From Mariprofundus sp. KV (GTDB taxonomy: Bacteria > Pseudomonadota > Zetaproteobacteria > Mariprofundales > Mariprofundaceae): a DNA stretch of 33,302 nucleotides. A program made the position numbers and the translations under genes. The notes below the pieces were generated by a model that was given only the letters and a program-made list of their open reading frames with translations, ran no database searches and was not told where the DNA came from. Positions 21,093 to 26,625 of the stretch are shown piece by piece. The stretch spans positions 1 through 33,302 of the forward strand of contig NZ_VWNB01000017.1 of the NCBI RefSeq assembly GCF_013387475.1, written 5' to 3'. Numbering within the stretch: the first letter of the stretch is position 1; each line of letters opens with the position of its first letter.

Positions 21093-21775
21093 CTCTCTTC
21101 TCCGATCATCTCATTGGGAATGACAGGTGTTACCACCTGAGAAAGCAGCCCCTTCACTTCAATTTCAATATTGCCATCAACAAGGCGAATCGCCTTGCCC
21201 GATGGACTCTCCACGCCCGCTTTCACCTTGAACGGACCGCTCTTCAGTTCCGGCCTGATCGGTGAGGTATCCACCTTTTTCAAGCTGTCGAGCCACACCT
21301 CAGGCCCAATAAGCTTAACCTCTCCCGGTTCAATGGTTAGCCCGCTCACCTGCCACTCTTCCGGCAACTCGAAGTGCGCATGCAGCGGCATCGAACGGGT
21401 TACCAGCCTGTCTACCTGCAACTCCAGACGATCTGGCTGAACCTTCTCAATACGCAGACCTGCCGGCACAGCGACAGCATCCATCTGCAACGCTCTGACC
21501 ACCACACCCGGCGTTGTAATATCGGAGACATCCAGCGGCATGGTCAACGTCTTCTGGCGCAGATCCTTCAACCGGCTCTGCAACCCTTTGACCGTTACCC
21601 GTACATGATCGGGCATATCATTCACGATCACCATCTCTGCAGGTGTTCCCTGTACCTGCAGCGGAATATCAAGACTCACCGACCCTTCACCCTGACCGTG
21701 CACCTGTAGCCAGAGTGCCACAGCAATAATAATAGCCCAGAAGTGGAGATTATATCGACGCAGCATCTCCATCAC
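21089..21775 (-). CDS. YbbR/CdaR-like membrane-anchored protein
   Basis: A 228-aa protein with one N-terminal transmembrane helix (about 8-25, FWAIIIAVALWLQVHG) followed by an extracytoplasmic part made of YbbR-type beta-rich repeats (about 30-215; segments such as DIPLQVQGTPAEMVIVNDMP and VRVTVKGLQSRL repeat the pattern with variation). In Firmicutes the equivalent CdaR binds the membrane cyclase CdaA and modulates c-di-AMP output. Four-base overlaps on both sides, with cdaA and with glmM, suggest translational coupling and a shared complex. It is shorter than the four-repeat Bacillus protein and probably has two or three repeats. Function is inferred from context and fold only. Confidence 0.88.
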   Translation of the reverse strand: MMEMLRRYNLHFWAIIIAVALWLQVHGQGEGSVSLDIPLQVQGTPAEMVIVNDMPDHVRVTVKGLQSRLKDLRQKTLTMPLDVSDITTPGVVVRALQMDAVAVPAGLRIEKVQPDRLELQVDRLVTRSMPLHAHFELPEEWQVSGLTIEPGEVKLIGPEVWLDSLKKVDTSPIRPELKSGPFKVKAGVESPSGKAIRLVDGNIEIEVKGLLSQVVTPVIPNEMIGEER

Positions 21776-22572
21776 ACTTTAGCTCCGGGTTTTGTGCCGT
21801 TCTGTGGCACGGCAGCCACCACAGATGAGAGCTTTTGATTCAGCGCTTCGCGCAACTCGCTGCTACTCATCGCGGCACCAATTTGCCCCTCTTCCACCAG
21901 AAGCACCTCCCCCCTCTCTTCGGAAACAACCACAACCAGCGCATCGGTCTCTTCTGAGAGGCCGACAGCAGCACGGTGGCGGGTACCATAATCACCGGCC
22001 ACAGCATTGGCCTGTGCCAACGGCAGCAACACACGGGCAGCAACAATACGTCCACCCTGCAGATCGGGGCAGACAATCACCGCACCGTCATGCATCGGCG
22101 CATCAGGACAGAAGAGCGCCTGCACAATATCCGGCCGTAGCGGCGCATCCAGCTCAACGCCTGACTCAAAGAGGTGACGCAGGCCGGTATCCCGTTCAAT
22201 CACAATCAGACCACCCCAGCCGCGGTGCACCAGAGAGAAGGCAGACTCCACCAGCCCGTCGAGCAGCTCATCAGTCGCAACCGCAGTGGCAGCAAGCGGA
22301 TTCACGGCCACACGCATCAGCGCACGACGAATCTCCTGCTGAAACAGTACAACGAGAATAACCATGAAGGCGGAGAAGAAGTGGCCGAACATCCACTCAA
22401 CAGTGAACAGACCAAAGGTACGGGCGGCCTGATAAGTGACGACTACAATCGCCACTCCGATCAACATCTGTACGGCTCGCGTGCCGCGAATCAGGCGAAG
22501 AAAGAAATAGACAACGATGGCGACCACCGCGATATCAAGTATATCTATGAGTCCGAATTGCCAGTTAGCCAT
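21772..22572 (-). CDS. cdaA: Membrane diadenylate cyclase (CdaA type)
   Basis: Makes cyclic di-AMP from two ATP. The 266-aa protein has three N-terminal transmembrane helices (about 8-75), then the linker FQQEIRRAL and a DisA_N/DAC catalytic domain (about 100-240). The two catalytic motifs are present: DGA in MHDGAVIV, and RHR in DYGTRHRAAVGLSEETDALVVVVSEE. The arrangement with a YbbR-domain gene and glmM directly downstream, each overlapping by four bases, is the classical CdaA context. No c-di-AMP phosphodiesterase (GdpP, PgpH) or receptor gene was recognised in the window. folP lies 91 bases upstream on the same strand and may share the transcript. Confidence 0.95.
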   Translation of the reverse strand: MANWQFGLIDILDIAVVAIVVYFFLRLIRGTRAVQMLIGVAIVVVTYQAARTFGLFTVEWMFGHFFSAFMVILVVLFQQEIRRALMRVAVNPLAATAVATDELLDGLVESAFSLVHRGWGGLIVIERDTGLRHLFESGVELDAPLRPDIVQALFCPDAPMHDGAVIVCPDLQGGRIVAARVLLPLAQANAVAGDYGTRHRAAVGLSEETDALVVVVSEERGEVLLVEEGQIGAAMSSSELREALNQKLSSVVAAVPQNGTKPGAKV

Positions 22573-22663: not shown

Positions 22664-23482
22664 TTAAGAGAGCACCGATGCCATACGAATAGCTCTTCCC
22701 TGTAGTGCAACATCATGTACTCGCAGTATATCAGCCCCGTGCAGGATACCAACAGCTCCGGCCACTGCCGTTTCAACTTCGCGATCATCAACTGCTGCTC
22801 CGGTCACCAGACCAATAAATGATTTGCGCGACAGGCCCAGCAGCAGTGGCATGGCAAAGCGCCGCTTAAATTCGCCGGTCGCCTTGATCAGCGTCAGGTT
22901 ATCTTCAAGGCGTTTGCCAAAACCGATACCGGGATCAAGCACAATCGATGACTCGGCGATGCCCGCCTGCAGACAGGCGGTGATACGCTGTTCAAAAAAG
23001 AGACTGACCTCATCGACTACGCCACGGTATTCAGGGTTAAGCTGCATGGTTTCGGGGCGCCCCTGCATATGCATCAGACAGAGATCAACACCGCTCTCTG
23101 CTACCACTTGCAGACTCTCTGCATCAAAAGTCAGGGCGGAGACATCATTCACCAGTGCCGCTCCTGCTGCAACGGCCTGCCGCATCACCTCAGCTTTCAT
23201 GGTATCAACAGATACCGTGCAACCTGCAGCAGTCAGCGCTTTGATCACCGGAATGACCCGCTGCAACTCATCTTCAAGCGAGACCGGTTTCGAACCGGGT
23301 CTGGTCGATTCACCACCCACATCGATAATCGCAGCGCCAGCATCGCGCATGGCCTGGCCATGTTGCAGTGCTTTTTCGACATCAACATAGTTTCCGCCAT
23401 CGGAAAACGAATCGGGGGTGCAATTAAGCACCCCCATCATCCATACATCACGATTGGCCGGACGAAACCAGCGAGAAGGCAT
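22664..23482 (-). CDS. folP: Dihydropteroate synthase
   Basis: Condenses 4-aminobenzoate with hydroxymethyl-dihydropterin pyrophosphate in folate synthesis; the target of sulfonamides. The 272-aa TIM-barrel protein shows the family signatures MGVLNCTPDSFSDGG (about 16-30), DVGGESTRPGS (about 54-64), SVDTMKAEVMRQA, NDVSAL, LMHMQGRPETMQ, LDPGIGFGK and GLSRKSFIG. The ATG shares one base with the stop of ftsH (TGATG at 23484-23480), the same ftsH-folP-glmM neighbourhood seen in E. coli. Here cdaA and ybbR are inserted between folP and glmM. Confidence 0.97.
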   Translation of the reverse strand: MPSRWFRPANRDVWMMGVLNCTPDSFSDGGNYVDVEKALQHGQAMRDAGAAIIDVGGESTRPGSKPVSLEDELQRVIPVIKALTAAGCTVSVDTMKAEVMRQAVAAGAALVNDVSALTFDAESLQVVAESGVDLCLMHMQGRPETMQLNPEYRGVVDEVSLFFEQRITACLQAGIAESSIVLDPGIGFGKRLEDNLTLIKATGEFKRRFAMPLLLGLSRKSFIGLVTGAAVDDREVETAVAGAVGILHGADILRVHDVALQGRAIRMASVLS

Positions 23483-25416
23483 CAGTGAACCTGACCCGCC
23501 TCTCCGTCTGACGACTTGCTCTCTTCACCGCTTTCACCGATATCCACCTTCGCAGATGGCTCATGCGGCGGCGTTTTCGGAGATGAAGGTTTCTGCTCAA
23601 ACTCCTTAATCAGCAGCGGCTCCTTACCTTCCATGACACGATCAATATCGGTGGTGTCGAGTGTCTCATACTTGATCAGACCCTTGGCCAGCAGATGCAG
23701 CTGATCCATGTGCTCTTCGAGAATCTTCTTGGCGCGATTGTAGTTCTCCTCGATCAGATTGCGCACCACGATATCGATCTTGCGTGCAGTCTCTTCCGAG
23801 ATGTTGGTCTGACGGGTGATTTCACGCCCCAAAAACGGCTCATGTTCACGCTCGCCATAGACCATCGGCCCCATCTCATCGGACATGCCCCACTGGGTTA
23901 CCATGTTACGGGCCAGTTGCGTGGCGCGTTCAAAGTCATTGGATGCACCGGTTGTCATCTGTCCGAGCACCAGCTCTTCACCGAGGCGTCCACCCATCAT
24001 GATCGAGATCTGATCACGCAGGTACTCCTTATCATGGTTGAACTTATCCTCAGCAGGCATCTGCATGGTGATACCGAGCGCCTGTCCACGTGGAATAATG
24101 CTCACCTTATGCACCGGATCGGCATGTTTCAGATACTTGGCCACCAGTGTATGCCCGGCCTCATGATAGGCGGTTGTCTCTTTCTGATCGTCCGAGATCA
24201 GCATGGAGCGACGCTCTGTACCCATCATCACCTTATCTTTTGCCGTTTCAAAATCGGCACGGGTCACCTTATCACGGTCAAATCGGGCGGCATTAAGTGC
24301 TGCCTCATTAACCAGATTCGCCAGATCGGCACCGGAAAATCCCGGCGTACCACGCGCCAGCTCCTTGGTATTCACATCAGATGCCAACGGCACCTTGCGC
24401 ATATGGACTTTGAGAATCTGGTCACGACCCAGTAGATCCGGACGCGGCACAGTGACCTGACGGTCGAAACGACCCGGACGCAGCAGCGCCGGATCAAGCA
24501 CGTCAGGACGGTTGGTGGCGGCCACCAGAATCACACCCTCATTGGACTCAAAACCATCCATCTCAACCAGCATCTGGTTAAGTGTCTGTTCGCGCTCGTC
24601 GTTACCACCACCGATTCCGGCACCGCGATGGCGACCCATCGCATCAATCTCATCCACAAAGATAATGCATGGCGCATGTTTCTTGGCCTGTTCGAACATA
24701 TCACGCACGCGTGATGCACCGACACCAACAAACATCTCCACAAAATCAGAACCGGAGATGGAGTAAAATGGCACCTCTGCCTCACCGGCGATGGCGCGCG
24801 CCAGCAGCGTTTTACCTGTACCCGGAGGGCCTACCAGCAACACACCTTTAGGGATTTTACCACCAAGGCGAGTGAATTTGGAGGGGTCACGCAGAAATTC
24901 GATCACCTCGGTGACCTCCTGCTTGGCCTCATCACAACCAGCCACATCTTCAAAGGTGACGCGAGCGGTATTTTCATTGAGCAATTTGGCCTTGCTCTTG
25001 CCAAAGCCCATGGCACCACCTTTACCACCGCCCTGCATCTGGCGCATGAAGAATACCCATACTGCGATCAGCAGCAGCATCGGGAACCATGAGATCAGCA
25101 CCGAAAGAATAAACGGCACCTCTTCGGCCTCCTTCACATTCACCACAACATGCTGCTCCAGCAGACGCTGAGTCAGTGCCGGATCATTGGCAGGAATGGT
25201 GACATCATAGGTTTTCAGCTCGCCACCGTTGTCGCGATACTGCCCCAACACCTGATTGTCCTTGAGGGTGGCGGTCTCAACCAGACCGCTATCCACCTTT
25301 TCAATAAAGGTGGAGTAAGCCATCTTGCTGCCTTTGGTCATCGGTGCCGAAAACATATTGAACAGACTCATCATCGTTACGCCGATAACCAGCCACAGTA
25401 CTAAATTCTTACCCAT
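23482..25416 (-). CDS. ftsH: ATP-dependent zinc metalloprotease FtsH
   Basis: Inner-membrane AAA+ protease that removes misfolded membrane proteins and short-lived regulators (in E. coli sigma-32 and LpxC). The 644-aa protein has two transmembrane helices (about 4-22 and 103-124) around a periplasmic domain, then the AAA module with Walker A GPPGTGKT (196-203), Walker B IIFVDEID (251-258), pore segment [10 protein letters not shown] and the second region of homology [20 protein letters not shown]. The zinc-protease motif HEAGH is at 418-422. A charged Ser/Pro/Lys-rich tail (about 605-644) is non-conserved. The ATG at 25416 is preceded by AAGGATAGG. Twin inverted repeats lie at 17-66 bases upstream. 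It overlaps folP by one base. Confidence 0.98.
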
Positions 25417-25432
25417 TGTTCCTATCCTTTGT

Positions 25433-25482
25433 TATCCCCTAGTCGGGATCTGCTGCAAACGATCTATCCCTTAAGCGGGATG
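25433..25482 (-). promoter_or_regulatory. Twin TATCCC-N6-GGGAT inverted repeats in the ftsH leader
   Basis: Two copies of the same imperfectly conserved palindrome, TATCCC-N6-GGGAT, lie at 25433-25449 and 25465-25481, their first bases 32 apart, which is about three helical turns. They share 14 of 18 positions including a TA and a C in the spacer. They lie 17-66 bases upstream of the ftsH start. This fits a pair of protein-binding operator half-sites on the same face of the DNA, or two small hairpins in the mRNA leader. I do not recognise the motif, and no promoter elements were identified with confidence. Confidence 0.5.
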
Positions 25483-25632
25483 AATGTAAAACCAATTTCA
25501 CGCAAGCGTCACTTAAAAGCATGAAAAGAAGATTAAAAACCACAACCTCTTCTTACTATCATATGTAGGGACAGAGCCTTAGCGATTCAACCCTATGCCA
25601 CTCAAACAAGCCGAAACAGCGCTCTTTTCTAA

Positions 25633-26625
25633 TCAACTGCGAGTGACTGCACAAGCTGACGTTCTCGGCCGCAGATGCAAGCGCCCCTGCCTGCGCTGCA
25701 GACGACAGCCGGAGAGATCGAGCCCGCCACGACCTCCGCGAGCCGTCCACTGCTCCACCAGCAGAATATGCCTGCGCCCGGGTGTCACCCCTTCACCCAG
25801 TGTTGCCACCATCATCCGCTGCAACACCCTGGCACGAATCGGCGCTGAACTGTTGGCCCATACCGCCCATGGCAGCACCATCAGGCCATCTTTACTGTTT
25901 GCAGCCTGAGCCAGAACAGCATCCGCACCAGCCTCCAGCTCTAAAGCCAGCCGCTGCGCCTGCCGCTGCCAGCGCAGAAACAGCTGTTGCGGATTCAGAC
26001 CCGTAGCGGCTATGCGCGGGAACAATTCGTGCCTGATGCGATTGCGCCAGATGGTCGTGTCGTGATTGCTGGGATCTTCAAACCACGTTACACCAGCCAG
26101 AGAGAGGGCCTCGCGCAGTGCGGTGCCGCCAATATGTAGCAGTGGCCGAATGATGCGCAACCCCTGATAGGTACGTTCAGACTGCATGCCGCGACAGCCA
26201 CCAGCCCCGGCCCCCTGCAGCAGCCGCATACAGACAGTCTCTGCCTGATCATCACGGTTGTGGGCCAGACAGAGGGTTGTGATACCGGACTCCCGACTCC
26301 ATGCCAGAAACTGCGCAAAGCGCCCCTCTCGAGCCTCCGCCTCACGATTGGTCTGGCCTGAAAAAGCGAGTCTGGCGCTGAAAAAAGGGATCTCCCAGCT
26401 TCTGGCCTGCTGCGCCAGTGCCTCACACTCCAGCTGCGAACTCTCTCGCCAGCCGTGGTCAACATGCCAGGCCTGCACATCATGACCTTTGGCTTTCAGG
26501 GCCAACAGCAGGGCCGTTGAATCTGCGCCGCCGGACCAGCCAACGGCCAGTTGATGCGGAAGTTCAGGAATTTCAGGATTGCTTAACCACGCTGTAAAGG
26601 TTGCAGATACTGCATCCAGCCTCAT
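25633..26625 (-). CDS. tilS: tRNA(Ile)-lysidine synthase
   Basis: Modifies the wobble cytidine of the CAU-anticodon isoleucine tRNA to lysidine, using lysine and ATP, so that it reads AUA. The 330-aa protein has the N-terminal ATP-pyrophosphatase domain with the PP-loop SGGADST (about 31-37), then WHVDHGWRESS, LAHNRDDQAETVCMRLLQGAGAGG (about 120-143), IIRPLL and the conserved FEDPSNHD with RNRIRHELFP (about 182-201). The C-terminal part is short compared with E. coli TilS (432 aa), so the second C-terminal tRNA-binding domain appears missing, as in several shorter family members. The start codon overlaps the stop of the upstream 741-aa gene by four bases (ATGA), implying translational coupling. 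ftsH follows after 216 bases. Confidence 0.94.
   Translation of the reverse strand: MRLDAVSATFTAWLSNPEIPELPHQLAVGWSGGADSTALLLALKAKGHDVQAWHVDHGWRESSQLECEALAQQARSWEIPFFSARLAFSGQTNREAEAREGRFAQFLAWSRESGITTLCLAHNRDDQAETVCMRLLQGAGAGGCRGMQSERTYQGLRIIRPLLHIGGTALREALSLAGVTWFEDPSNHDTTIWRNRIRHELFPRIAATGLNPQQLFLRWQRQAQRLALELEAGADAVLAQAANSKDGLMVLPWAVWANSSAPIRARVLQRMMVATLGEGVTPGRRHILLVEQWTARGGRGGLDLSGCRLQRRQGRLHLRPRTSACAVTRS

Follow-up and report, generated by a model that had tools for sequence, protein, structure and literature searches.

Does the pair of near-identical palindromes ahead of ftsH in Mariprofundus sp. KV, a member of a genus of iron oxidisers, represent a pair of operators, a switch in the mRNA, or something else? 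We considered this question on a window of 33,302 nt, i.e. the whole stretch of DNA analysed, which forms contig C8 in a genome of 2.53 Mb (G000 in the following). The two palindromes described by the first-pass annotation are present where it placed them, TATCCCCTAGTCGGGATC at 25433-25450 and TATCCCTTAAGCGGGATG at 25465-25482; both have the form ATCCC-N6-GGGAT, share 14 of 18 positions and start 32 bp from each other. In the mRNA sense the distal palindrome reads ATCCCGCTTAAGGGAT and the proximal one ATCCCGACTAGGGGAT, followed by AAGGAT and by the ATG of ftsH (Table 1). A gene for a CdaA-type diadenylate cyclase (window positions 21772-22572, DAC and CdaA_N domains) lies two genes downstream of ftsH, past folP, the gene order being tilS-ftsH-folP-cdaA.

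Table 1. Features of the ftsH locus in the window, and 6S RNA matches on other contigs of the same genome (contig and locus handles are ours).
Feature	Position	Strand	Basis
ftsH CDS, start at 25416; Peptidase_M41, AAA and FtsH_ext domains	23482..25416	(-)	
Probable ribosome-binding site AAGGAT, 7 nt before ATG	25424..25429	(-)	assigned by position
Proximal stem-loop unit, mRNA sense ATCCC-GACTAG-GGGAT; ends 4 nt before AAGGAT	25434..25449	(-)	sequence and predicted fold
Spacer between stem-loops, 16 nt, AGATCGTTTGCAGCAG in mRNA sense; diverging part of the repeated unit	25450..25465	(-)	leader comparison
Distal stem-loop unit, mRNA sense ATCCC-GCTTAA-GGGAT	25466..25481	(-)	sequence and predicted fold
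CTTGCG, possible -35 element	25501..25506	(-)	most leaders have CTTGCG or a variant at a near-constant 14-15 nt past TTCAT
Conserved element TTTAATCTTCTTTTCATG, 11-bp direct repeat TTMAY-N6-TTCAY; probable, putative regulator-binding site	25520..25537	(-)	22/22 genus leaders
tilS-like gene (PP-loop ATPase), upstream of ftsH on the same strand, ending at 25633	25633..26625	(-)	
6S RNA match (L151)	C27:83831-84008		Infernal
6S RNA match (L149)	C24:189972-190141		Infernal
6S RNA match (L148)	C25:113961-114130		Infernal
6S RNA match (L147)	C25:91299-91464		Infernal

The pairing of the two palindromes is not due to chance. Perfect inverted repeats with 5-bp arms and a loop of 3-8 nt, occurring twice with identical arms at most 100 bp apart, were found once in the whole window, precisely at ftsH; the expectation from 200 first-order Markov simulations was a mean of 0.25 per window (0.045 with equal loops), and of 5000 simulated versions of the 216-bp intergenic region, 4 contained such a twin. 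The single motif is common by itself, since ATCCC-N4-8-GGGAT occurs at 19 places in the G000 genome, the simulated counts being 11-16, 6-8 and 2-4 for Markov models of order 1, 2 and 3 trained on the window. The reversed pattern, used as a control, was found once in G000 but 0-4 times in simulated sequence, and it is a poor yardstick because the pattern itself is scarcer in simulated sequence. Tandem Repeats Finder, with a minimum score of 30, did not list the twin pair, which is not decisive because this tool overlooks short diverged arrays. In fact, the kinship of the two G000 copies becomes visible only by comparison with relatives.

For this comparison ftsH was found in 22 of 23 Mariprofundus genomes (G006 gave no match at E 1e-10), and the 22 leaders of the genus were read (21 plus that of G004); in another of the searches, loci were obtained for 30 of the 66 matches listed. 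The ATCCC/GGGAT unit is present in two copies in G000 and in G001, in three in G012, where the middle unit carries GGGAA in place of GGGAT, and in one in G008; the other 18 leaders have none. It is also absent from 9 further leaders of the family and the order. Among 80 additional loci the leaders of nine were read (L039-L047, six of them sequence-identical to genomes of the set); here the unit was absent by eye from L040, L045 and L047. On the ftsH tree (24 sequences, 1860 nt, 969 nt for G004, GTR+G, rooted on G026) the four carriers form one group with an ultrafast bootstrap of 71, within which G000, G001 and G012 are joined with a support of 88 and G000 and G001 with 99. This group adjoins G016, G019 and G020, and both G019 and G020 have at the same position, starting 32 nt before the ATG, one stem-loop of different sequence (GCCCGTTTTGACGGGC and CCCGTTTCTGACGGG, respectively).

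The flank on the 5' side of each palindrome is repeated too, for example as AAATGGTTTGAAATTC, AAATAGTTTGGAATTC and AAATGGTTTGAAACTC in G012, hence an entire block of 32-34 bp was duplicated. The copies stand head to tail at one locus and their number varies among relatives, as expected of a tandem repeat. From the copy numbers and the grouping of the carriers on the tree, it follows that the twins are tandem copies of one 32-34 bp unit. When the 204-bp leader was used as a query, beyond the ftsH leaders of the four carriers only matches of 15-32 bases were obtained (best E 8e-4), and the rest of the genus gave no further example of the repeated unit. The tandem duplication of this small stem-loop unit ahead of ftsH is thus real, and it is limited to one lineage. 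A literature search returned no abstract, among those listed, that describes this repeat.

The feature is real and has probably been under selection, because the closest relatives retain the arms (8 units, in 4 of the 22 leaders). Precisely, the arms show one deviation in 80 positions over the eight units of the four genomes, being invariant in seven of the eight. The mean pairwise identity was 97.5% in the arms and fell to 64.5% in the 14-nt spacer and to 45% among equally long loops; permuting the columns gave 0.0003 for arm conservation, with the units aligned on the arms, which favours the arms. This alignment left the loops and spacers that lie between these arms free to agree, yet they have diverged strongly. 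The loops measure 6, 6, 7, 6, 8, 8, 6 and 6 nt, which are lengths appropriate to a hairpin, and the steps between the centres of the units are 32, 32.5, 34 and 32 bp, that of 34 bp being in G012. In all four carrier genomes the proximal stem-loop ends 3-4 nt before AAGGAT. Five of the 22 leaders, against 1.1 expected, have a perfect hairpin beside the ribosome-binding site by our count, with the qualification that four of the five are homologous and that the counting rule missed G020.

A dimer on DNA normally needs a fixed spacing of its half-sites, and RNA hairpins keep their stems with free loops and a loose phase. Invariant arms combined with variable loops, spacers and phasing are hence better explained by RNA stem-loops beside the ribosome-binding site than by a dimeric operator. 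Compensatory evidence for the stems is thin because the arms hardly vary. In the predicted folds of G000 the two stem-loops have probabilities of 0.99-1.0 and 0.90-0.97 between 5 and 42 °C and of at least 0.87 up to 50 °C; those of G001 stay at or above 0.75 up to 50 °C. The proximal stem-loop is well predicted in G000, G001 and G008, and in G012 it is predicted to lose to competing pairings, with a probability of 0.06-0.12. The G000 leader as a whole has only a modest advantage over shuffled sequences (z -1.60, 10 of 200 as good).

We favour, with about as much doubt as confidence, the reading that the duplicated stem-loop unit belongs to the leader RNA of ftsH and has a modest role there. 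The unit of 32-34 bp, made of approximately AAATnGTTTGAAnnTC and ATCCC-loop-GGGAT, lies between the upstream control region of ftsH and the ribosome-binding site, and has been tandemly duplicated in one small Mariprofundus branch, as the comparison shows, to two copies in G000 and three in G012. Each copy, if transcribed, is predicted to fold into a stem-loop of 5 bp, and 3-4 nt would separate the last of these from the ribosome-binding site. As part of the 5' leader of the ftsH mRNA, these stem-loops would probably influence its stability or the loading of ribosomes to a modest extent, and the extra copies, which may have arisen by slippage or unequal recombination, would be tolerated or mildly tuned. 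Stem-loops of the 5' leader adjoining the ribosome-binding site are a class of mRNA stabilisers or translation modulators. The ftsH unit resembles them in its predicted stem-loop 3-4 nt before AAGGAT, with a kept stem and a loop free to vary; it differs in having serial copies in one leader, and is known here from sequence and predicted folds. Should transcription of ftsH start downstream of the palindromes, these would lie outside the RNA. In a consensus promoter scan of positions 25380-25680 the single site lay on the wrong strand; the scan gave none on the ftsH strand and no terminator, and no -10 element could be assigned ahead of ftsH.

A possible explanation, although we hold it to be unlikely, is that the unit has no function, i.e. 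that it is a short tandem repeat evolving neutrally or under slight selection, whose arms owe their apparent conservation to the youth of the copies and to an alignment anchored on the arms. The confinement of the unit to 4 of 22 leaders, its presence in one to three copies and the absence of a counterpart elsewhere agree with this, but the loops and spacers between the same arms have diverged strongly and the arms have not. Head-to-tail units of 32-34 bp present once, twice or three times in close relatives recall the short intergenic tandem repeats (minisatellites) of bacteria, from which the ftsH units differ in being few and diverged, in being missed by Tandem Repeats Finder and in carrying each a well-kept stem-loop.

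The first-pass annotation had noted a geometry typical of cooperative operator pairs; on this reading a dimeric regulator would bind both palindromes cooperatively and repress or activate ftsH. Two similar palindromes about three helical turns apart at ftsH do resemble such pairs; moreover, the arms are invariant in seven of eight units, the centres are 32-32.5 bp apart in two genomes and the first palindrome begins within a 71-nt stretch identical in G000 and G001. However, the distance between half-sites varies among units (6, 7 or 8 nt), as does that between centres (32-34 bp) and the number of copies per leader (one to three), and such loops, together with the 34-bp step of G012, would break both half-site spacing and helical phase. 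No regulon was found either. A search for the twin in the 23 genomes gave nine matches, five in ftsH leaders and four single odd ones; neither this search, nor the leader query, nor the places of the single motif in G000 revealed a second promoter with the pair.

We traced all 19 places of the single motif in G000: two are at ftsH, two in 6S RNA genes, one in hisC (C25:171694, inside the frame), 13 in open frames and one before an SDR-like frame. Those in open frames include C9:17045, just past a possible start, and C2:18487, inside a rhodanese-like frame; the last one, C24:15934, about 50 nt before the ATG, is one possible single site outside ftsH (the names of these frames are read from their translations). 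The annotation had considered that its proposal would fail if the arms were not conserved in related ftsH leaders and if there were no other occurrences near promoters. By this standard the proposal fails for the 18 leaders, out of 22, that lack the arms, and also for 14 of the 15 places outside ftsH and 6S RNA genes, which lie within frames; in the four carriers the arms are retained. Overall, we regard a paired operator as improbable.

The two motif copies at C25:91374 and C25:114041 fall within 6S RNA matches. The other perfect motif copies at first suggested a shared target, but two of them sit in a dispersed element that Infernal identified as 6S RNA; 6S RNA paralogues account for both of these perfect ATCCC-N6-GGGAT copies. 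As the dispersed element is 6S RNA, the arms that it has in common with the ftsH unit are probably a coincidence of short stems. The 6S RNA family (RF00013) is multi-copy in the genus, with 70 Infernal matches (E of 0.01 or lower) spread over all 23 genomes and up to five copies per genome (G012, G013, G019), a typical set consisting of one strong copy plus divergent ones, mostly under the gathering score of 46.4. In an alignment (L006, 1880-2140, and relatives), most divergent copies have beside them a hairpin whose loop is G-rich, GGCCTGCC...GGCAGGCC, which may be a terminator of these copies or of the neighbouring gene. A literature search for 6S RNA in Mariprofundus gave no paper.

A bolder form of the leader reading is that the number of stem-loops is an evolvable dial, gain or loss of a unit stepping the translation of ftsH or the life of its mRNA, so that the repeat number would set the protease level of each species; to this idea we attach little probability.

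It was also suggested that the GGGAT/ATCCC arms pair with the GGAT of the ribosome-binding region, making an RNA switch. That the arms trap the ribosome-binding site, as an RNA thermometer or another kind of switch would, is very unlikely. Folding at different temperatures gave for AAGGAT in G000 a mean unpaired probability of 0.19 at 5 °C, 0.29 at 37 °C and 0.68 at 60 °C, and a similar rise, from 0.16 to 0.63, in G008, so that some melting is predicted in these two leaders. In G000, however, it is the AUCGUUU segment of the spacer that partly masks AAGGAT; the masking pairs use spacer and flank bases rather than the arms, which pair inside their own hairpins (at 0.9 or more between 5 and 42 °C). 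In G001, whose FtsH is 97% identical and whose arms are the same, AAGGAT is unpaired at 0.74-0.84 from 5 to 60 °C; the value goes from 0.37 to 0.82 in G012, and the site is open in G016. Since G001 keeps the arms and has an open ribosome-binding site at every temperature, a conserved thermometer is unsupported. Rfam gave no match at the gathering score anywhere in the window. A stress-protease gene with a structured leader and some predicted melting in G000 and G008 is reminiscent of the thermometers of heat-shock genes, but at ftsH the arms do not pair with the ribosome-binding site. Finally, that the repeats are binding sites for CsrA is hardly credible: the genome has two csrA-like genes above the Pfam cut-off and GGA recurs in every 3' arm and in AAGGAT, but CsrA prefers GGA that is unpaired or placed in the loop of a hairpin, and GGA is in none of the eight loops and is paired in the arms in the G000 and G001 predictions.

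The control of ftsH transcription more probably resides in the direct-repeat element upstream. The pattern TT[AC]A[TC]-N6-TTCA[TC] is present in all 22 leaders of the genus, starting 75-153 nt before the ATG; its chance occurrence is about 0.003 per 200-nt leader, to be read knowing that the 22 leaders have a common ancestry. All four carriers have the stretch TTTTTAATCTTCTTTTCATGC in identical form. A scan of four genomes for TTTAATCTNNTTTTCATG with two mismatches gave ftsH and a few scattered two-mismatch places (controls 0); when the pattern was loosened and included CTTR, 15 of the 23 genomes yielded 20 matches, for the most part in ftsH leaders. Half-sites repeated every 11 bp would presumably suit a response regulator of the OmpR/PhoB kind, which we take as a candidate. 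Readings of the element as a sigma-54, sigma-32 or sigma-70 site, made by eye, were rejected, none being convincing in all leaders.

What appeared as an operator pair at ftsH is, on this analysis, a recent local duplication, which suggests caution with twin palindromes read from a single genome. If the copies change the level of FtsH, the four related species, with one, two, two and three units, would be a natural test series. For the control of ftsH in these iron oxidisers, the element common to all 22 leaders is the better lead.
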